Positions 6,315 to 39,573 of a stretch of DNA of 49,007 bases are shown piece after piece (within the stretch, counting starts at the first letter, position 1; each line of letters begins with the position of its first letter). The notes below the pieces were generated by a model that was not told the DNA's origin, searched no databases, and worked only from the letters and a program-made list of their open reading frames with translations. The stretch is from positions 1-49,007 of the forward strand of contig JANXYG010000028.1 of NCBI GenBank assembly GCA_025350245.1. The letters are read 5' to 3'. The translations under genes were made by a program, and so were the position numbers. The DNA is from Betaproteobacteria bacterium (lineage in GTDB: Bacteria > Pseudomonadota > Gammaproteobacteria > Burkholderiales > Ga0077523).

Positions 6315-6845
6315 TCACTGCAAGAGCGGCTGAATCAGCTGGGTCAGCCTTGCCTCATCCACGCCCCCAAGTTCGGTCTTGACCACCTTGCCGGCACGAT
6401 CGACGATGACCGTGAATGGTAGTGCACCCAATTGGTTGCCGAGCGACCGGGACAGCTCGACGGCGTCCAGTTCGCCCACCAGGATGGGATAGTTGATGCC
6501 CATCTCCCTGGCGTATAGCGCCACCTTGTCTTTTTCGTCGATGGCGACGCCGACGAATTGCAGTCCACGCGGACCGAGTTTCTGCTGCATCCGGATGAAA
6601 GCCGGAATCTCCTTCCGGCACGGCGCGCACCAGGTCGCCCAGAAGTTGATCACCAGCACCTTGCCTTTCCAGGTTCCGAGTGGCGTCTTGACGCCCTTGA
6701 GGTCGGCGAGCGCGGCGTCCATCAGACCGGGGGGCGTCGGCGGGGCCGTGGCGCTTTCGACCTCGCCGGTACGAAAGTAAAGCCCAGCCGCCAGGGCGAG
6801 CAGAGCCACGGCGGTGAAAGCGAACAACTGCTGCAGGCGATTCAT
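6315..6845 (-). CDS. TlpA/ResA-type membrane-anchored thioredoxin
   Basis: A 176-residue thiol-disulfide oxidoreductase facing the periplasm. Residues 5-22 are a hydrophobic signal anchor, and the thioredoxin fold follows with the active site WCAPC at residues 72-76 inside INFWATWCAPCRKEIP and the cis-proline region ALPFTVIVDR. The ATG at 6845 is chosen because it starts directly at the anchor; the open frame upstream only mirrors the neighbouring dsbD-like gene. It lies 48 bp after the DsbD alpha-domain gene, so the two probably act together on periplasmic disulfides, perhaps in cytochrome c maturation or general reduction. Confidence 0.9.
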   Translation of the reverse strand: MNRLQQLFAFTAVALLALAAGLYFRTGEVESATAPPTPPGLMDAALADLKGVKTPLGTWKGKVLVINFWATWCAPCRKEIPAFIRMQQKLGPRGLQFVGVAIDEKDKVALYAREMGINYPILVGELDAVELSRSLGNQLGALPFTVIVDRAGKVVKTELGGVDEARLTQLIQPLLQ

Positions 6846-31011: not shown

Positions 31012-31083
31012 CTACGTCGGCAACGGCCTGCGCTCGGGCGCGGCTCCCGCCAGCGCCGTGCCGATCATCGCGTCACGCGAGAC
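31012..31083 (-). pseudogene. Orphan 3' end of a nitrile hydratase alpha-type gene (left flanking repeat)
   Basis: Read on the minus strand, this fragment encodes LVSRDAMIGTALAGAAPERR and then stops at a TAG (31012-31014). The first part is the same as the C-terminus of the intact hydratase alpha protein encoded at 38977-39573, but without any upstream gene body. At DNA level 31036-31083 matches 39001-39048 at 46 of 48 positions. It probably is the displaced original 3' end of that gene, left behind when the island arrived. Confidence 0.7.
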
Positions 31084-31177
31084 CAGTCCCGCGCGTCGCA
31101 GGAACGGTAGCGCGATCCGGTTTTCGACGCTTCAATAACATCGCCCTCGCTAACGAGTCGCGCCGCTCAACTTTTCC

Positions 31178-32725
31178 TCATACCGCTGAGCACCGCGAGT
31201 CATCCGCGCCCGAGAACGCTCTTGGGCTGACGTAGGACAGTACTCGCCGTCTCAGCCCGTGGCGATGGCCACTGGCGCGCCCGAACTGCTGTGCTCCGAC
31301 GGCCGCCACTCCGTCACGCGCGAGGGCTTTCTGCCACCGTTTCCACGCAGTCCCGGGAATCGATGCAGTGTCTCCCAGTGACGCTCGACCGCCCCTCATA
31401 ACAGGAAACCCGTATCGCTTTGCCATTTCCAGCGCGTCGCGGCCGTAGCACTCCCATCTCGTCCCGACCTGCAACCAGACAATCGCACCCGGAAACCGGG
31501 AAGTGAACCAACTGTGCTGACTGGCCAGACTGGTGGCGAACGGTGGTTCGAGACGGCTACCGATCCCGGGCCACGCCAACGGGAACAGCGCGTCGAGCCA
31601 TGGATGTCGTGCCCAAAGTCGAGCGGTCAATCGGAAACCGCTTGCATGCCGAAAGTGGCCGAGGTAACTGCCAAGCGAGCTTTGGAGCGCCTTCGATTGC
31701 GCGAGATCCATGCACAGCCCGTGGTTTCCGACCAACGTCGATCCCCACTTCGCAAGGCACTGATCGGCCGCATCCACCACCCGCTGCCGGACCAGCAGAT
31801 AGTTCGGCCTGATGACATACCCGAGAAAATCCACGCCACGACTGACCGCCCACGGCATACCCACCGGCGTACGCAGGCTCAATCCCAAACGTTCCCGAAG
31901 GAACTCTTCGATCGCGTCCCGCCACGCGAGCAAGCGTTTCGGATCGGGATCGACCAGCACGAAATCGTCCACGTACCGCAAGTACCAGCGGCATTTCAGC
32001 GTGTGCTTGACGAACTGGTCCAACTCGTTGAGGTAGACGTTCGCGAAGAACTGGCTCGACAGGTTCCCGATGGCGAGTCCGCATTCCGGGGCCGCGTTGA
32101 CGAGGCGCTTATGCGGTGGAACCCGGTCGAAACGCGCCGGGTGCCCAAGGCGATAAGCCCCTTGGGCCGGGTTACCGGTAAGCAGGCTGCGCGTAATCCT
32201 CGCCAGATGCCGATACCGCTCTTCCTCCGACGGGTATCGTCGTGACGACTGGTCGAGGCGATGGGAGATCATGGCGAAGAGTCGTCGTCGGTCGATGGTG
32301 TTGAAGTAGTTGGCGATGTCGAGTTGCAGGGCATAGGCCCGCTGCTGGCCGTTGCAGGTTGCCTGCCGCATGAATGTCTGCAATCGCGTCACAGCACTGT
32401 GCGTGCCCTTACCCTGCCGATTGGCATAGCTGTCATGGATAAAGACGGGCTCGTACAGCACCTCGAGTTGGGGCACAAGCCAATGGTGGACCACACGATC
32501 CGCAAAAATCGGCGCGTGAATTTCGCGCGCCTTCGGTTTGGTGGTCACGAACACCCGGGTGCGGGAAGGACGCCAGGTACAAGCATTCAACGCCGTCTGC
32601 GCCGCCGCCAGCCGGTCCAGCAATCGGCCGTTGTAGCGCAAACAGTCGCGGGTGCCACGTTTTCGCCGCCGGCAGGCGAGCCATGCTGCCCAGAGCGATC
32701 GAAAACGCACTCGTGGCTGACTCAT
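31178..32725 (-). CDS. DGR reverse transcriptase with MutS-like C-terminal extension
   Basis: A 515-residue reverse transcriptase. Motif A is LQLDIANYFNTID (Asp136), the DGR-type IGxxxSQ motif is IGNLSSQ (219-225), the catalytic YVDD is at 251-254, and GVDFLGY lies at 297-303. The DGR context supports the class. Residues about 415-505 lie beyond a normal DGR RT and resemble MutS domain I: QVGTRWECYGRDA, a following SIPGTAWKRWQKAL and a GVAAVGAQQ stretch correspond to the family's GDFYELFGEDA, IPMAGVP and VAICEQ. I use the ATG at 32725, 46 bp after the TR; the open frame continues upstream through the TR, but that part reads as Thr-rich shadow. It would copy TR RNA with adenine-directed errors. 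Confidence 0.92.
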   Translation of the reverse strand: MSQPRVRFRSLWAAWLACRRRKRGTRDCLRYNGRLLDRLAAAQTALNACTWRPSRTRVFVTTKPKAREIHAPIFADRVVHHWLVPQLEVLYEPVFIHDSYANRQGKGTHSAVTRLQTFMRQATCNGQQRAYALQLDIANYFNTIDRRRLFAMISHRLDQSSRRYPSEEERYRHLARITRSLLTGNPAQGAYRLGHPARFDRVPPHKRLVNAAPECGLAIGNLSSQFFANVYLNELDQFVKHTLKCRWYLRYVDDFVLVDPDPKRLLAWRDAIEEFLRERLGLSLRTPVGMPWAVSRGVDFLGYVIRPNYLLVRQRVVDAADQCLAKWGSTLVGNHGLCMDLAQSKALQSSLGSYLGHFRHASGFRLTARLWARHPWLDALFPLAWPGIGSRLEPPFATSLASQHSWFTSRFPGAIVWLQVGTRWECYGRDALEMAKRYGFPVMRGGRASLGDTASIPGTAWKRWQKALARDGVAAVGAQQFGRASGHRHGLRRRVLSYVSPRAFSGADDSRCSAV

Positions 32726-32770
32726 GGCCCAACGCACCAGCACATACGCGAAAGTCGCGGTGCCCGCCTC

Positions 32771-32879
32771 GTCACTCTCCGCTACGCACCAAACGAACAG
32801 CGTTGTCGTTGTCGCAGTTGTTGTTGTTGTTGTCAACGCTGCCGTCGCCGAAATTGACATTCCAGCAATTGGAGCCGTT
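32771..32879 (-). other. DGR template repeat (TR)
   Basis: A 109-bp copy of the target gene's 3' end, between avd and the RT on the same strand. Read in the target frame it encodes NGSNCWNVNFGDGSVD followed by five Asn (AAC) codons, CDNDNAVRLVRSGE and a stop. The density of AAC/AAT codons is the classic signature of a template in which adenines are randomised. Fourteen of fifteen substitutions between TR and VR are at TR adenines. The exception is a G/C change near the 3' end, within the region expected to distinguish the two initiation-of-homology sequences. TR is 9 nt shorter than VR. Confidence 0.95.
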
Positions 32880-33087
32880 GGGCACTCCGAGCAGCAGAAC
32901 ACCCACACCGCGGGCCAAGGTCAATTCACCTCCGGCTCGCGCTAGCCCATGCGCTTTTGCGGGCCGCCAACCACCTCGACCCCACCGGTAAGCCACCCGC
33001 ACGCGGCAGGCTCGCCTGTATCGATATGCCATCGCCGGATGTGCCGTCGATGGCGTCATGGGCGCACAGTGACTCGGGACGCGCGGG

Positions 33088-33525
33088 TCAGACAAGTTGA
33101 CCCGATTCCGCCCGCCCTGCACCGACACCTTCCCGCTCGTTTCCGGCTGGATGCAGCCGCGCCTTCTGCAGAGCGCGCCGCCAGCCGGCCGCCTGTCGGG
33201 CAATACTCAGGGCCAACTCGACGCCCTGCTCGAACTCTGCCCAACTGCGAAATGCATGTACTTCCTTTCCGAGTTGAAGCAGCAGCTTCAGTTCCTCGGC
33301 AGCAAGGTGCAACTCGGTAACAACCGCAGTCCGGGTGCTCGGGTCCGCGGCCTGCGCGCGCAAGACCAAGCGGCACACCGCGAGCGCCTGCGTTCGCAAC
33401 TGCGAACCCACGGTGTACTTGTGGTAGCGCGCGAACCGGCGCACGGCCTCTTCTACCCAGACCAGCATCCGTTGCGAATCCCGCCAGATCGGTAGATGAG
33501 ATGTCGAACTCCCGCGCGTGGTCAC
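33088..33525 (-). CDS. avd: DGR accessory variability determinant (Avd)
   Basis: A 145-residue basic, helical protein between target and TR, the usual place of Avd, which forms a pentamer of four-helix bundles and assists the RT on the template RNA. The family-like stretch is LPIWRDSQRMLVWVEEAVRR, followed by ARYHKYTVGSQLRTQAL and later LHLAAEELKLLLQLGKEV. Several Arg/Lys residues (RRFARYHKY, RRALQKARLH) fit nucleic-acid binding. The start codon lies within a 12-bp perfect palindrome (33516-33527). Identification rests on pattern and location. Confidence 0.85.
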   Translation of the reverse strand: MTTRGSSTSHLPIWRDSQRMLVWVEEAVRRFARYHKYTVGSQLRTQALAVCRLVLRAQAADPSTRTAVVTELHLAAEELKLLLQLGKEVHAFRSWAEFEQGVELALSIARQAAGWRRALQKARLHPAGNEREGVGAGRAESGQLV

Positions 33526-33555
33526 GCCATCGGATACCGCAGGAAAAGTTCAAAA

Positions 33556-33673
33556 GTCACTGTCCGCTACGCACCAAACGAACAGCGTAGCCGTTGTCGC
33601 AGTAGCCGTAGTTGCTGCCTTTGCCGCCAACGCGGCCGTCGCCGAAATTGACAACCCAGCAACCGGAGCCGTC
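33556..33673 (-). other. DGR variable repeat (VR) at the 3' end of the target gene
   Basis: This 118-bp stretch ends with the target's stop codon. It aligns with the TR over its whole length, with a 9-bp length difference. On the coding strand AAC, AAT, AGC and GAC codons of the TR appear as GAC, GGT, GTT, CGC, GGC, AGC, TAC and TAC-type codons: every internal difference is a template A replaced in the VR. The last 25 bp before the stop are nearly identical and act as the presumed initiation site. Confidence 0.95.
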
Positions 33674-34066
33674 TTTCGATCTCGTGTGATACCACTCCGA
33701 CGGCGTATCCGGGAAGATCTCGTCGTCTATCGACGGATTCTCGCAGTTCTTCGCAATGATCGTTTTCAGCTCGTCTACTGACGGCATGCGCCAGCCATTC
33801 GACCAGCCCTCGTTGGCGCTGTCGTGGGTGAACTTTTTCGGTACTCCGACGCAACCCAGATCGTCTTTCCACGTCTGGCCCTGACTGCAGCGCATCCAGG
33901 TGAGATCGGTCTTCTTGTCGTAAACGACGCCGCCCTTGACCACGAGGCGTGCACTCGACGGTTTGGAAGTCTGGGAAGAGTCGCACTCCGCGAGTGCAGT
34001 GCTTGCCGCGACACACACGCCGGCACCCATCGCCAAGACCCAGATCGACGCCACGCTCACATGCAT
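33557..34066 (-). CDS. DGR target: secreted DUF1566 (Lcl_C)-type variable protein
   Basis: A 169-residue exported protein. GGGAGGAG lies 7 bp before the ATG at 34066, and residues 1-26 form a signal peptide ending STALA-E. The mature part reads like a DUF1566/Lcl C-terminal domain: VYDKKTDLTWMRC, WSNGWRMPSVDELKTII, PSIDDEIFPDTPSEWYHTRS and WVVNFGDG. Residues 132-169 are the VR. Sites facing mutable codons are 132, 135, 138, 140, 145, 150-155 and 158-160; Cys136 and Cys156 are fixed by A-free codons and may form a disulfide across the variable face. A binding protein whose ligand pocket is diversified is the likely role. It has no canonical lipobox. Confidence 0.9.
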   Translation of the reverse strand: MHVSVASIWVLAMGAGVCVAASTALAECDSSQTSKPSSARLVVKGGVVYDKKTDLTWMRCSQGQTWKDDLGCVGVPKKFTHDSANEGWSNGWRMPSVDELKTIIAKNCENPSIDDEIFPDTPSEWYHTRSKDGSGCWVVNFGDGRVGGKGSNYGYCDNGYAVRLVRSGQ

Positions 34067-34200: not shown

Positions 34201-35346
34201 TCAGGGCAACGGCCGGGCCACTCGGAATCCAAGGTTGCTCGACCGATCCTTCGCCAGCGTCCAGCTACGTTGTGCCAGTCGAACCACCTCCGGCTTGTCG
34301 TACCAACTACCGCCGCGGGTCATCCGCCGCTTGCAATTGCCTTCGGTCCAGGCGGCCCCGTCGGTCGGAGCTCCTTGAAACGAGCCATTCTGGCAGTCCT
34401 CCACCCATTCCCAAACGTTGCCGAGCATGTCGTACAGTCCGAACGCATTTGGCTTGAACGCCCCCACGGGTGCCGTGGATCCATAGCCGTCGTCACACTC
34501 GAATGCATCCGTCGACAGTTGATAGGCGCGCTTCCGAGCCTGATCGCTCACGTTGGCGAACCGGCAAGCGCGGGCAGCATCTTGACCCCACCACGTGGCT
34601 TCCTGAGTGCCAGCTCTGGCGGCGTACTCCCACTCAGCCTCGCTCAACAGCCGATATGGCTTGCCGGTCTTGCGCGACAACCACGTGGCATAGGCCACCG
34701 CCTGCGGGTACGACATGTTGATCGCCGGACGGCGTCCGCGGCCCCATCCCTCATCCTTGAGGCTTGCGCAGCCCGTGTCAGCGACGCAAACATCCCATTC
34801 ATCGAACGTTACCTCGAACTTCCCGACTGCGAACGGCGCAGCCACAGTAACCATGCGCGGTGGTCCCTCGGATTCCTCGCGGCCATCTTCGTCGCGGGGC
34901 GATCCCATGACGAACCGCCCAGGCGGGATCACCACCATCTCCGGGCACTGCGGGCAGTCGCGAAACACCGTTCCAGCAGGCACGCCACCATTTCCCGTCT
35001 TGCCCCCGGCAGGCGCGGCAGCCGGTTCCGTCAGGCGCTTCCGCGCCGCCACGGAAACCTCGCTCTTGGGGTCGATCTCAAGCGACTTGCTCCATTGGAC
35101 CCTGGCTTTCTCGCCCTCGCCTGTGGCGAGATAGGCCTCGCCCAGGTAAAAGCGCGCCATCGCGTTGTTCGGGTCGCTTTTCAGGCCCCGTTCAAACTTG
35201 GCTATGGCCTGCGCCGCCTTGCTCTGCCCAAGCAGTTCAAATCCGTCAGCGAAGAGTTGCTGCGGGTCTTCCGCCGACACCCTGCCGGACGCGAGGACGA
35301 CCAGCACCGCAAAACACAGCGAAACCCATATCCGAGCCCGTCCCAT
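34201..35346 (-). CDS. Secreted TPR-FGE-sulfatase (SUMF1-like) domain protein
   Basis: A 381-residue exported protein. A signal peptide covers residues 1-25, TPR-like helices about 28-100 (AIAKFERGLKSDPNNAMARFYLGEAYL), and an FGE-sulfatase/C-type-lectin-like domain 130-381. The latter shows CPEMVVIPPGRFVMGSP, LLSEAEWEYAARAGT, NAFGLYDMLGNVWEWVED and the C-terminal RMTRGGSWYDKPEVVRLAQR. This fold is a frequent DGR target, but its 3' end has no TR-like sequence, so it is not diversified by this element. It lies 134 bp upstream of the DGR target on the same strand and may be a partner. The ATG at 35346 starts the signal peptide. Confidence 0.85.
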   Translation of the reverse strand: MGRARIWVSLCFAVLVVLASGRVSAEDPQQLFADGFELLGQSKAAQAIAKFERGLKSDPNNAMARFYLGEAYLATGEGEKARVQWSKSLEIDPKSEVSVAARKRLTEPAAAPAGGKTGNGGVPAGTVFRDCPQCPEMVVIPPGRFVMGSPRDEDGREESEGPPRMVTVAAPFAVGKFEVTFDEWDVCVADTGCASLKDEGWGRGRRPAINMSYPQAVAYATWLSRKTGKPYRLLSEAEWEYAARAGTQEATWWGQDAARACRFANVSDQARKRAYQLSTDAFECDDGYGSTAPVGAFKPNAFGLYDMLGNVWEWVEDCQNGSFQGAPTDGAAWTEGNCKRRMTRGGSWYDKPEVVRLAQRSWTLAKDRSSNLGFRVARPLP

Positions 35347-35410: not shown

Positions 35411-37048
35411 ATGCCAAAATATTCCGGGGAATCGATCAACGATACGCTGATGTGGGCTGCGGCGAATGTGCTCGCACTGGTTTCCCTGTTGCAATGGACG
35501 CCGGCGAACGCCCGAGACGTGCTGAGCCTGTTTCCCTCCACGCGCTACTTGATTCTGAGTTCCCCATGGCGCCCGACGTCCAACGACGAATGCAGTGCAC
35601 TCCAGCAAGAGTTTTCGGCAGAGGTTTCTGGCCTGACTGGGCAACATCAAGCGTGCCTGGCCGACACACCAGCCGATCCGAACGAGGGCGGCTCGTGCTC
35701 GAAGGCCAGTTGCCAAGCGCTGCACAGCGCCATGGATTCGGCGTCGCGCAAGTCGAGCGCAGAGACGAGCCTGTGCCGGCAGCGAGTGGGCGAGTACCTG
35801 GCAGCCCAACGTCAGGAAGCCGAGCAACGGCGCAAAACCGCGGAGGCTGCGGAGCGGGAGGCAAAGGACCGCGAACGCGAAGACGCTGCCCGCAAGGCAA
35901 AGACCGAAGCGGATCGCCAAAAGGACGACAAGTCCCGGCGTGATCGCGATGCCGAACGCGACCGCGACCGGAAGGCCCAGGAAGCGCGCGATCAACGCGA
36001 CCGCCAGGAGGCAGATGCTCGGCAAACCAAGGACAAGGCCGAACGCGAGGCCGCGCGCGTAAAGGCGGACAAGGAATCAGCTGATCGAGCGAGCGCAGAC
36101 AAGGAAGCGAGGAATCAGGCCCGCGCGGCGCAGGACGCTGCGGACCAAGCCCGCCGGGAATCGGAGCGGGCCTTGGCTCAAGCCCGGTACGAAGCCGAAC
36201 TTGCCCGGGCGAGAGAAGCCACCGCCAAAGTGGAACGCGAAAACAAGGAACAGGCGCTCTATCTCGACCTCGTTATCAAACTGAAGGACGGAAAAGACAA
36301 AGTCAGCATGACCAAGGAGTTCATCGAGAATCCGTTCAAGAAGGCCGCGGAAATGGCTGGCGACGCGGTGGTCGGCAAGCTGGTAGACAAAGGCCTGGAT
36401 CTCGCCGCGCCCATCGGCCCTGAGAAGGAGGACTCTCGCTACGAAGCAGTGGCTGCCGGCGTAGACGCTGCCCGCGGCACGGCGCTCGGGGGCAGCCCCG
36501 CTGCGGATAAGATTTCTGGCGCTGCACTGGAAGGCATCAACAAGATCAACCGCCAAGTGTTGGGCCAGTTGGATGACTTGGGAAAGCAGATGGACCAGAT
36601 CGGCAAAGGAGAGACGCGATCGGCTGGCACAACACCTTCAACCTATAGTCCCTCACCGCCTCCTCGAACCTCTGGGGGTGAGGTAGTCCGGCCCAGAGCT
36701 GCTGCCGAGACGCCCAACCCCTTCAGGCGCGAGACGAACAACGACCGCGTTGCAGCAGCATCACCGGAAGGGATGCCGACCGTCAACCCGTTCGTCAAGC
36801 GCGGCGGCGGGTCCACGTACGATGATCCGGATACCGGTCGCACCTACAGCATTCCGTCGGGGCACATCCTGTATCGCAACCCCGGCACCGGCGCGTTGTC
36901 CGTCGTCGAAGACGCCCAAGTGCGCCGCTCCAGCGACGACGATTGGATGGAAGACGGACAACCACGGTGCAGCGCGTCGGGCAAGGGTCGGGTTCTTGCC
37001 GAGTGCGAGAAACGTCGCAAGACGAAGAATCCGTTTGCGACCAAGTAG
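35411..37048 (+). CDS. Secreted coiled-coil protein of unknown function
   Basis: A 545-residue protein divergent from the FGE gene. The N-terminus (1-35) ends with a signal-like ALVSLLQWTPANA, followed by a Cys-containing region (about 60-135). A long, strongly charged Ala/Arg/Glu/Lys/Asp coiled coil spans about 140-300. A helical segment (310-400) with Gly-rich parts and a Pro/Ser-rich linker follows, then a C-terminal domain around STYDDPDTGRTYSIPSGHILY and a short Lys-rich end. I recognise no family. Divergence from the FGE gene over 64 bp suggests a shared regulatory region. A structural or envelope-spanning role is only a guess. Confidence 0.7.
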   Translation: MPKYSGESINDTLMWAAANVLALVSLLQWTPANARDVLSLFPSTRYLILSSPWRPTSNDECSALQQEFSAEVSGLTGQHQACLADTPADPNEGGSCSKASCQALHSAMDSASRKSSAETSLCRQRVGEYLAAQRQEAEQRRKTAEAAEREAKDREREDAARKAKTEADRQKDDKSRRDRDAERDRDRKAQEARDQRDRQEADARQTKDKAEREAARVKADKESADRASADKEARNQARAAQDAADQARRESERALAQARYEAELARAREATAKVERENKEQALYLDLVIKLKDGKDKVSMTKEFIENPFKKAAEMAGDAVVGKLVDKGLDLAAPIGPEKEDSRYEAVAAGVDAARGTALGGSPAADKISGAALEGINKINRQVLGQLDDLGKQMDQIGKGETRSAGTTPSTYSPSPPPRTSGGEVVRPRAAAETPNPFRRETNNDRVAAASPEGMPTVNPFVKRGGGSTYDDPDTGRTYSIPSGHILYRNPGTGALSVVEDAQVRRSSDDDWMEDGQPRCSASGKGRVLAECEKRRKTKNPFATK

Positions 37049-37162: not shown

Positions 37163-38500
37163 ATGCTCGCCACCTTCACCCTCAGCAACTTCAAGAGCTT
37201 CAGGGAAGCGCAGCTCCACCTGGGTCCCTTGACCGTCCTGATCGGTGCCAACGCCGCTGGCAAGAGCAACGCGATCGAGGCTCTCAGGCTGCTTTCCTGG
37301 CTCGCCCAAGGCCAGAAGCTGAGTTCGATTCAGTACGCGGTCAACAGCGCCGACCGGGTCGTGCGCGGCCGAATCGATGACCTCTGTCATCGCGGGCAGA
37401 GCCAGTTCGGTCTCGGCTGTGTGACCAACGATTCGCATTGGAACCGCTTGGCAATGCAGATCAGCATTCGCGAAGGTGAATTGCACATCTCTGCCGAGAA
37501 GATCGACGAGGTTTTGGTAACGGTCCCTCTTTACGATATGGACCAGCCATCGACAGGGCTGAGCACAGATGCCGGGGTGGCGTACAACAATTTTTCGCGA
37601 GGTCGCAACAAACCGCACGTTACCGTGAGCGATCAAATGGCGGTGTTTGCGCAGTTGGAGAGTGCTGTTCGTTTCGAGGTCGGGCACAAAAAAGCCCAGG
37701 AAACGATTCCCGATGTCGCAAAGCGGTACCAGAACCTGTTGTCGAACATTCTATTCCTGGATCCGGTTCCGGCGCGCATGCGGGAGTACAGCTTCACCAA
37801 CGACAAGCGACTGCTCGGGGACGGTACCAATCTTTCGAGTGTGCTGTTTCGTCTCTGGGGTGGCGGCGATGACTTCCCCGCGGAACCCTTCTTGTCGCAA
37901 CGCGCGGCCATCCTCGAGTTCATCCAAAGCCTGCCTGAGCAGGACATTGCCGGTTTGAACTTCCTGAACGGCCCGCGAGGCGAAGTCATGGTGGAGTTGC
38001 TCGAGACGTTCGGCGGTGCCCCGATGGCCTATGACGCCTCGCTCCTGTCGGATGGCACATTGCGGGTGTTGGCTATTGCTGCCGCAATGCTCTCGGCGCC
38101 GGAAGGCAGTCTGGTAGTCATCGAAGAAATCGACAACGGTGTGCACCCGAGCCGCGCGCGCCATCTGCTGGACAGCATTCGGTCGATTGCAGAGCGCCGC
38201 AAACTTCGCGTGCTCCTATCGACACATAACCCAGCCATGCTGGATGCACTCCCGGATGCCGCGGTACCCGATGTGGTGTTCTGCTATCGCGACCCAGTAA
38301 GCGGAGCAAGCAAACTCGTTCGAATGCAACAGATCCCGGATGTCCCTGAACTGCTGGTCCAAGGACAACTGGGCCACCTGATGACTTCGGGCGCGCTGGA
38401 ACGGTTCGTCAAGACACACAAGGGTTCTGAGGCGCGCAAGGAGAAGGCAAGGGCATGGTTGGAAACGCTTCACGCGGCCGACCCCGGGGTGGAGGGATGA
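37163..38500 (+). CDS. RecF/OLD-like AAA (ABC-type) ATPase
   Basis: A 445-residue ATPase of the AAA_21/SMC-like group. The N-terminus LSNFKSFREAQLHLGPLTVLIG leads into Walker A GANAAGKSN (about 29-37). SLLSDGTLRVLAIAAAML is the signature, VVIEEIDNGVHPSRA is Walker B with the extra Glu, and LLSTHNPAMLDALPD is the switch His. The middle part (100-260) is unique. There is no C-terminal TOPRIM. GGAGG precedes the ATG. The stop overlaps the PIN gene by four bases; such ATPase-nuclease pairs resemble two-gene phage-defence systems (PARIS, Septu), with PIN as effector here. Confidence 0.9.
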   Translation: MLATFTLSNFKSFREAQLHLGPLTVLIGANAAGKSNAIEALRLLSWLAQGQKLSSIQYAVNSADRVVRGRIDDLCHRGQSQFGLGCVTNDSHWNRLAMQISIREGELHISAEKIDEVLVTVPLYDMDQPSTGLSTDAGVAYNNFSRGRNKPHVTVSDQMAVFAQLESAVRFEVGHKKAQETIPDVAKRYQNLLSNILFLDPVPARMREYSFTNDKRLLGDGTNLSSVLFRLWGGGDDFPAEPFLSQRAAILEFIQSLPEQDIAGLNFLNGPRGEVMVELLETFGGAPMAYDASLLSDGTLRVLAIAAAMLSAPEGSLVVIEEIDNGVHPSRARHLLDSIRSIAERRKLRVLLSTHNPAMLDALPDAAVPDVVFCYRDPVSGASKLVRMQQIPDVPELLVQGQLGHLMTSGALERFVKTHKGSEARKEKARAWLETLHAADPGVEG

Positions 38501-38952
38501 CTGCGATCGTCATCGTCGACAGCTCCATATTGCTGAACATCCTCAATGTGCCAGGCAGAAACCAGCACAGGGCAGAAGTCCTTTTCGATCTCGAGCGAAT
38601 GATCGAAGCGGGGGATCACCTCTTCATTCCAATGGCAGCCATCGTCGAGGTCGGGAACCACATCGCCCAATTACCGGATGGCACGCTTCGCAGGTCGTCC
38701 GCCGATCGCTTCGTCAACGAGTTGCGCAAGGCGGTCGCGGACGACGCTCCCTGGAAACCTATCAATTTTCCCTCGAATGAAGAAGTTCTTGGGTGGCTCG
38801 ATGCGTTTCCCGATTCGGCTACCAAGGGCATCGGTATGGGCGACCTCTCAATACGCAAGGAATGGGAGGCCTGCTGCGGGCGCTACGCTCTCAGCCGAGT
38901 TCGCGTCTGGACATTGGACAATGATCTTGCCGGGCTCGACCGAATAGTCTGA
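38497..38952 (+). CDS. PIN-like ribonuclease paired with the ATPase
   Basis: A 151-residue protein that reads like a PIN domain: Asp8 in IVIVDSSILLNIL, Glu51 in AAIVEVGNH, Asp116 in GIGMGDLSIRKEW and Asp141 in VWTLDNDLAGLD could form the acidic metal site. PIN proteins cleave RNA and often act as toxins. Start overlaps the ATPase stop (ATGA). No antitoxin-like gene is adjacent, so the ATPase may hold it in check or trigger it. It is the last gene before the right island boundary. Confidence 0.8.
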   Translation: MTAIVIVDSSILLNILNVPGRNQHRAEVLFDLERMIEAGDHLFIPMAAIVEVGNHIAQLPDGTLRRSSADRFVNELRKAVADDAPWKPINFPSNEEVLGWLDAFPDSATKGIGMGDLSIRKEWEACCGRYALSRVRVWTLDNDLAGLDRIV

Positions 38953-38976: not shown

Positions 38977-39573
38977 CTAGTCTCCGGATGCGGTGGGGCA
39001 GGGCGCGGCACCCGCCAGCGCCGTTCCGATCATCGCGTCACGCGAGACGAGCTTCGCCAGAGCCACCTCGTCCAGTCCATCGGTCCCGGCGGGTCTGGCC
39101 GGCACCACCAGATAGCGCATGTCGGCGGTCGAATCGTGCACACGCACGGTCGTGGTGACTGGCAAATCGACACCGAATTCACTCAGCACGACACGCGGCT
39201 CCCGGACGGTACGGCTGCGGTACTCTCGGCTCTTGTACCAGTCGGGCGGCAGGCCCAGCAGCCAGCGCGGATAGCACGAGCACAAGGTGCACACCACGAC
39301 GTTGTGCACGTCCGGCGTGTTCTCGACGACCACCAGCTTGTACAGGCCGCGGTCGAGGCCGATCTCCTCCAGCGCGGCATTGCCGTCCGCCAGCAGACGC
39401 GCCTTGTAGGCCGGATCGACCCAGGCCCGGGCGACGACCTTCGCGCCACGGGCGGGCGTGCGCGCATCCATGTCGGCGACCTGGGCGTCGACCTGTTCGA
39501 GCGACAGGATGCCCTTGTCCGCGAGCAGCTCGCGCAGCGAGGTTTCGAGGAGATTGAAGTAGGTGGTGGGCAT
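38977..39573 (-). CDS. Cobalt-type nitrile hydratase alpha / thiocyanate hydrolase gamma subunit
   Basis: A 198-residue metal-binding subunit of the nitrile hydratase family. The metal claw VCTLCSCY (Cys95, Cys98, Cys100) with Thr before Leu is the cobalt type; two of these cysteines are oxidised in active enzymes. REYRSRTVREPRVVLSEFGV and LVSRDAMIGTA are typical. It converts a nitrile to an amide or hydrolyses thiocyanate to COS and ammonia; the split-beta arrangement leaves both possible. Its last 50 bases include the right-hand copy of the island repeat (39001-39048), so its C-terminal tail may come from the island. Confidence 0.9.
   Translation of the reverse strand: MPTTYFNLLETSLRELLADKGILSLEQVDAQVADMDARTPARGAKVVARAWVDPAYKARLLADGNAALEEIGLDRGLYKLVVVENTPDVHNVVVCTLCSCYPRWLLGLPPDWYKSREYRSRTVREPRVVLSEFGVDLPVTTTVRVHDSTADMRYLVVPARPAGTDGLDEVALAKLVSRDAMIGTALAGAAPCPTASGD

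Follow-up and report, generated by a model that had tools for sequence, protein, structure and literature searches.

What kind of element occupies positions 31178 to 34066 of contig JANXYG010000028.1, and does it belong to the bacterial chromosome or to a phage? The contig, 49,007 nt long and called the window below, was analysed as a whole; it is one of 156 contigs in a 3.99 Mb draft genome of a Betaproteobacteria bacterium (GCA_025350245.1) that is 95.8% complete. A preliminary description had proposed a complete diversity-generating retroelement (DGR) on a chromosomal island, and we are in almost no doubt that the element is a DGR. It is complete and well-formed, and its kind is already known. 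Papers are given by PMC number.

Organisation of the retroelement

All core parts of a DGR are present, and all lie on the minus strand. The target gene (33557..34066) encodes a protein of 169 aa with an Lcl_C (DUF1566) domain (Pfam, 79.3 bits), and the variable repeat (VR), 118 nt at 33556..33673, is found at its 3' end. It is followed by the gene of an Avd-like accessory protein of 145 aa (33088..33525; PHROG 3206 Avd, 3.4e-12), by the template repeat (TR), 109 nt at 32771..32879 with 31 adenines, and by the gene of a reverse transcriptase (RT) of 515 aa with its ATG at 32725 (31178..32725; identified by RVT_1, PHROG 1423 and the tree described below). This order, target with VR, avd, TR and RT, had been described correctly, as had the strand.

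The same description likened the element to the DGR of Bordetella phage BPP-1 (PV330005, Rauchvirus BPP1). That comparison holds for the order of the parts (for BPP-1, PMC12875486), and the two systems also share adenine-limited differences between TR and VR and have RTs on the same side of the tree. It does not hold for the target, which is an Lcl_C protein here and the tail fibre protein Mtd in BPP-1, nor for the RT, which has a MutS domain I here, nor for the short spacer of 45 nt between TR and the ATG of the RT. Furthermore, the BPP-1 element is carried by a phage, and has a hairpin after VR, whereas the element in the window is on a chromosomal island and no such hairpin was found after its VR.

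The Lcl_C match extends to residue 166 of the 169 in the target. Among DGR targets, Lcl_C/DUF1566 is named as the commonest Pfam domain (PMC6642488), and it heads another list of target domains (PMC4159848), and DUF1566 has been reported as a CLec fold (PMC6642488). A search by sequence gave no PDB match for the target. Its N-terminus resembles a signal peptide, as judged by eye, and the protein is probably exported; a CLec fold and ligand binding would be predicted for it from its family. In the proposed mechanism, TR RNA would be copied by the RT, assisted by Avd, with random bases placed opposite adenines. The cDNA would then take the place of VR, where the target gene ends, and the Lcl_C protein would thereby gain a new ligand-binding face.

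Template and variable repeats

The alignment of TR and VR holds 15 substitutions, and 14 of them are at TR adenines (9 A>G, 4 A>T, 1 A>C). The remaining one is a G>C at column 112, close to the 3' end. Expressed in another way, 14/31 adenines of TR are changed in VR as compared to 1/78 of its other bases. The final five adenines of TR are unaltered, as is expected close to the initiation site. A shorter local alignment has 13 of its 14 substitutions at A (binomial P 6e-7, Fisher P 7e-8), and the alignment score of 72.6 compares with at most 15 in 500 shuffles. These counts and positions agree exactly with the preliminary description, which had left out that the alignment requires one gap of 9 nt. 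Mutagenic retrohoming is the probable cause of the differences. If TR and VR were instead a diverged duplication of a gene end, standing beside an RT from a group II intron or a retron, the bias towards adenines would be hard to account for; we consider this the least probable of the explanations, with next to no chance of being right, and the RT is taken up below.

The gap needs a closer look. VR exceeds TR by 9 nt, and an AAA codon is among these additional 9 nt whichever of the four equally scoring alignments is taken. TR carries a run of five AAC, which is prone to slippage. Mutation of adenines does not by itself turn AAC into AAA. Most simply, the present VR would have been written by an earlier TR that had 9 nt more. 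Given the AAA codon and the slippage-prone run, TR most likely lost the 9 nt later, by slippage. Alternatively, VR may have gained the 9 nt, or the assembly may have slipped in the run of AAC. The loops of related elements are, by eye, shorter than both TR and VR of the window, which weighs against the idea that TR was long in the ancestor of the wider family.

Not all observations favour a DGR in working order. Judging by the length difference, the VR seen now is apparently not a full-length product of the TR seen now; either full-length homing from this TR has probably not occurred since the length changed, or the assembly has slipped. A hairpin was looked for downstream of VR and not found (DNA fold z 0.08); there is only a 10-nt inverted repeat with its arms 33 nt apart. 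The Avd-like protein scores 26.4 bits with Pfam bAvd and 26.7 bits with NCBIfam Avd, both below the cut-off, and our local Avd profile missed the own Avd of a BPP-1-type phage locus (L145). All of these weigh against the proposed reading. On the other hand, the stem-loop after the initiation site in BPP-1 is important but not strictly required (PMC12875486), and a stem-loop is not a defining feature of DGRs, so the membership of the element stands. The local profile found Avd homologues in 86/97 loci searched, and a profile comparison matched PDB 2gsc with an E-value of 0.0014, a structure called homologous to BPP-1 Avd (PMC10053308).

A DGR that has fallen silent, with its parts intact and retrohoming at a standstill ever since the 9-nt loss in TR (or gain in VR), is a special case of the proposed explanation, and one that we hold to be possible, though less likely than not. 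Silence would fit the 9-nt difference with its AAA codon and the absence of a hairpin after VR. It would also fit the single VR copy: a search of the own genome for TR-like DNA gave nothing beyond TR and VR. Against it, the RT is open with intact motifs, and the best TR/VR pair in 9/77 related DGRs also differs in length, by 1 to 15 nt. Moreover, the BPP-1 DGR homes with an 18-nt length difference in E. coli (PMC12875486), so a gap of this kind is no bar to homing. As to variation of VR among strains, the data at hand comprise one genome per species.

Phylogeny of the reverse transcriptase

The RT contains YVDD and IGNLSSQ, as previously noted, and the latter fits [ILV]GxxxSQ; an SQ motif has been described for DGR RTs (PMC3521204). 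It matches RVT_1 above the gathering score of Pfam (42.7 bits) and PHROG 1423 RT at 5e-90. In a profile search its best PDB match was 8ub7, 'Reverse transcriptase' (5.6e-73), as compared to 1e-22 for the group II protein LtrA. We take 8ub7 to be the BPP-1 RT.

Relatives of the RT were collected by a scan of genomes, from which the best 80 of 551 were kept as loci (L numbers below), and by a scan of IMG/VR viral sequences, which gave 10 contigs. A few of these 90 related loci are near-identical copies. In 77 of the 90 the RT has beside it a TR/VR pair whose adenine bias is 75% or more, and the other 13 gave none, within the stretches examined. Since the bias was used as a filter, the pooled count of 1252/1358 substitutions at adenines is not independent proof. 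Among 11 genomes of the same genus there was no close RT; only two hold a related one, at 36-37% identity.

The tree of RTs has 124 rows (113 different) and was made by a quick method, with support from the SH-like approximate likelihood-ratio test (SH-aLRT) only and with long-branch warnings. A branch with SH-aLRT 97 sets apart 111 rows, among them the window RT and the BPP-1-type phage RT. All 13 rows beyond it (11 different) are from genomes of the same order. Seven of them were scanned, and 3 group II intron RTs and 1 retron RT were over the NCBIfam cut-offs, while 3 were below all of them. The window RT thus groups with DGR RTs and apart from group II and retron RTs. NCBIfam does list group II, retron and DRT RT models for it, which is what an origin from an intron or a retron could appeal to, but all are far below their cut-offs, whereas the genuine group II and retron RTs from this order pass theirs and fall outside the branch. 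The profile comparison and the SQ motif also speak against such an origin, as does the order of avd and TR, which is common to the relatives. We therefore reject a duplicated gene end with a group II or retron RT, which is refuted by the tree together with the adenine bias.

By tree path the nearest RTs are those of Gallionella (L090), Rhodoferax (L055) and Halorhodospira (L056). They are 45-48% identical to the window RT, have a C-terminal MutS-like domain (MSL) as it does, and belong to systems with Lcl_C-type targets. In L055 and L090, Avd and TR are ahead of the RT as in the window; unlike in the window, which has one target, there are two, one on either side of the RT, and, by eye, their TR loops fall short of the window's VR loop by about 5 residues. 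L056 yielded no TR/VR pair and no Avd.

A MutS-like domain on the reverse transcriptase

Towards its C-terminus, at residues 401-501, the RT has a match to Pfam MutS_I of 28.4 bits, above the cut-off of 20.6; the stretch taken as MSL is 31253..31558 on the minus strand. A profile built from 21 such RT domains matches the MutS structures 1ewq and 1fw6 (Taq MutS) with an E-value of 3.2e-14; 5 of 26 matching rows were left out of it (one duplicate, L064, L065, L068 and L069). MutS_I was matched at E 0.01 or better by 15 of 33 RTs examined, which are not a random sample: 28 are the window RT or matches of the local profile, and 5 are without such a match. The local profile finds MSL in 29/124 rows of the tree, 28 of the 49 rows in one fork and one separate archaeal row. 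The fork rich in MSL has a support of 81, and the domain has changed state at least 6 times on the tree. MSL with PF01624 is listed as a DGR accessory, and domains fused to the RT are mentioned in general (PMC10053308). The RT-MSL of the window is unusual, not unique. In our literature search no paper was found that states an RT-MSL fusion; the paper in which MSL was named lay outside that search.

We take Phe-x-Glu to be the mismatch-contact motif of MutS domain I. The window MSL reads GTRWE at this place, with the Glu retained and the Phe replaced by Arg, so the motif is broken. By eye, [FY]xE is kept in 15 of the 21 aligned domains and is lost in the window (RWE), L055, L056, L090, L095 and L130.

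The distance between TR and RT is another property of this lineage. From the end of TR to the first RT profile position, 45 pairs of the window's lineage have a median of 18 nt as compared to 103 nt for 31 other pairs, with five loci that have TR on the other side omitted and outliers kept (L065 at -81, L092 at 5946, several above 400). The window has 64 nt to the first profile position, more than most of its own lineage. No conserved RNA fold was found at the TR-RT junction in 16 loci of the sister lineage (-0.7 kcal/mol), a set that does not include the window.

It is conceivable, though we would call it unlikely, that a broad lineage of DGR RTs uses a mismatch-recognition domain of MutS to handle its own mispaired cDNA. 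The domain might hold mispaired ends, guide the mutated cDNA onto VR, or shield the heteroduplex from host mismatch repair. If so, one protein would couple programmed error-making with mismatch recognition and, given the very short spacer, the RNA start signals would be inside the rt gene or replaced by the MSL. In the sub-branch of the window, where the Phe is lost, the domain would then bind nucleic acid without reading mismatches. The part that the mismatch-repair domain of this RT lineage plays in mutagenic retrohoming is open to direct testing.

The chromosomal island

The DGR is part of an insert of about 8 kb between dsbB and the gene of nitrile hydratase alpha. In one sister species (G005) the site is empty: only 44 bp separate the ends of the tblastn matches of dsbB and nitrile hydratase alpha, and the genes further out are in the order of the window. 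None of the other sister genomes, 11 in all with G005, shows so clean an empty site. In G004, dsbB and nitrile hydratase are separated by 7 kb of different DNA, and G008, G009 and G010 have GGDEF-type genes between dsbB and RND genes, with no match for nitrile hydratase found. In the stretch fetched from each of the six others, only dsbB with GGDEF and mostly MetC neighbours was matched.

A direct repeat of 51 bp, identical at 48/51 positions, is found at both ends of the insert and scores 45 as compared to at most 20 in 500 shuffles. The left copy (31036..31086) is in a remnant of the nitrile hydratase alpha gene, an orphaned 3' end that closes with a stop codon of its own (TAG at 31012-31014). 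The right copy (39001..39051) is inside the intact gene (38977-39564, minus strand). The left copy is slightly nearer to the genes of the sister species than the right one, with scores of 21 to 17 and 20 to 16. The 29-base core of the repeat occurs at only these two sites in the own genome when up to 3 mismatches are allowed. The G+C content of the island is 0.616, and that of the rest of the window 0.663; the values per 1 kb overlap, 0.579-0.638 (8 values, island) and 0.617-0.708 (41 values, rest). The empty site together with the flanking repeat bears out the proposal of a chromosomal island.

Could the island be the remnant of a prophage, and the DGR a set of phage genes? RTs on ten IMG/VR viral contigs are 41-50% identical to that of the window, and a part of the sister RT lineage in the tree is viral, which would agree with a phage origin. 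However, PHROGs detected no phage structural gene in the proteins scanned, 7 from the island and 9 from its flanks, all drawn from 21-45 kb of the window. The PHROGs matches of these 16 proteins are RT, Avd, ABC transporters, a 'kinase' family and families of unknown function, and among the island proteins scanned none matched an integrase (Pfam, NCBIfam, PHROGs). The flanks are syntenic chromosome, the cargo is a candidate defence pair, and the five nearest RTs by tree path sit on bacterial contigs. A prophage remnant is thus very improbable, and within the 16 proteins scanned the earlier statement that the element is not surrounded by phage genes is upheld.

The rest of the island beyond the DGR holds four genes. 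Two of them, both on the plus strand, form the candidate phage-defence pair that the DGR shares this island and its mapped insertion site with: an AAA ATPase, candidate defence protein PDC-M07A (37163..38500; PADLOC 2e-198, AAA_21 105.7 bits), and its partner, candidate defence protein PDC-M07B (38497..38952; PADLOC 2e-54). A charged, repetitive protein (35411..37048, plus strand) matched 0 families in Pfam, NCBIfam, PHROGs and PADLOC. Adjoining the target, and on the same strand, is the gene of a protein with TPR and an FGE-sulfatase domain (34201..35346, minus strand; Pfam, 192 bits), which is possibly a partner or a former target. It was also considered as a second target of the DGR and rejected, as no TR-like DNA was found in the gene. 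Relatives of the FGE, coiled-coil, AAA and PDC-M07B proteins were searched for in 92 DGR loci (E 1e-8), with none found but one weak FGE match (L014); many of these loci are short, which makes this weak evidence for a separation of cargo and DGR.

Other retroelements in the genome

Two more DGRs were found in the genome, and they differ in what they target: PEP-CTERM surface proteins, as candidate targets in trans, and NACHT proteins. The first is on contig C116 (L013 8339-10773) and has an Avd, a TR, and an RT of the MSL lineage that matches the local MSL profile and not Pfam MutS_I. Three remote genes with a VR, one at the far end of C116, one on C32 and one on C42, appear to belong to it (L018 126-866, L016 3862-4545 and L019 3705-4316). 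Their VRs have 17/22, 16/24 and 18/27 substitutions at adenines, one above and two below the usual bias of 75%, and they are therefore candidate trans targets. All three proteins are Lcl_C-like and have a PEP-CTERM signal over the cut-off after VR. In the DGRs of related RTs, VPLPA-, PEP- and IPTL-CTERM signals exceed the cut-off in targets of L063, L067 and L092, and the signal of the L060 target is just below it (14.3 vs 16). Our literature search found no paper that joins 'diversity-generating retroelement' and 'PEP-CTERM'.

The second is on contig C78 (L014 3625-11838), with an RT, an Avd, a TR (6654-6780) and a VR on either side. Its VRs have 18/18 and 14/15 substitutions at adenines and lie in a TIR-NACHT-FGE and a NACHT-FGE protein, the second NACHT being just below the cut-off. 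This system resembles the DGR-diversified conflict systems of PMC10907252 and PMC7159879. Several distinct DGRs per cell, with NACHT-linked and remote targets, are also described for Thiohalocapsa PB-PSB1 (PMC10907252). Unlike there, one of the three systems here appears to target PEP-CTERM proteins in trans, and the DGR of the window targets a small, probably exported Lcl_C protein.

A broken fourth DGR, close to the C116 type, is seen near a contig end on C142 (L194 3418-5065), where there is an avd together with RT fragments in different frames.

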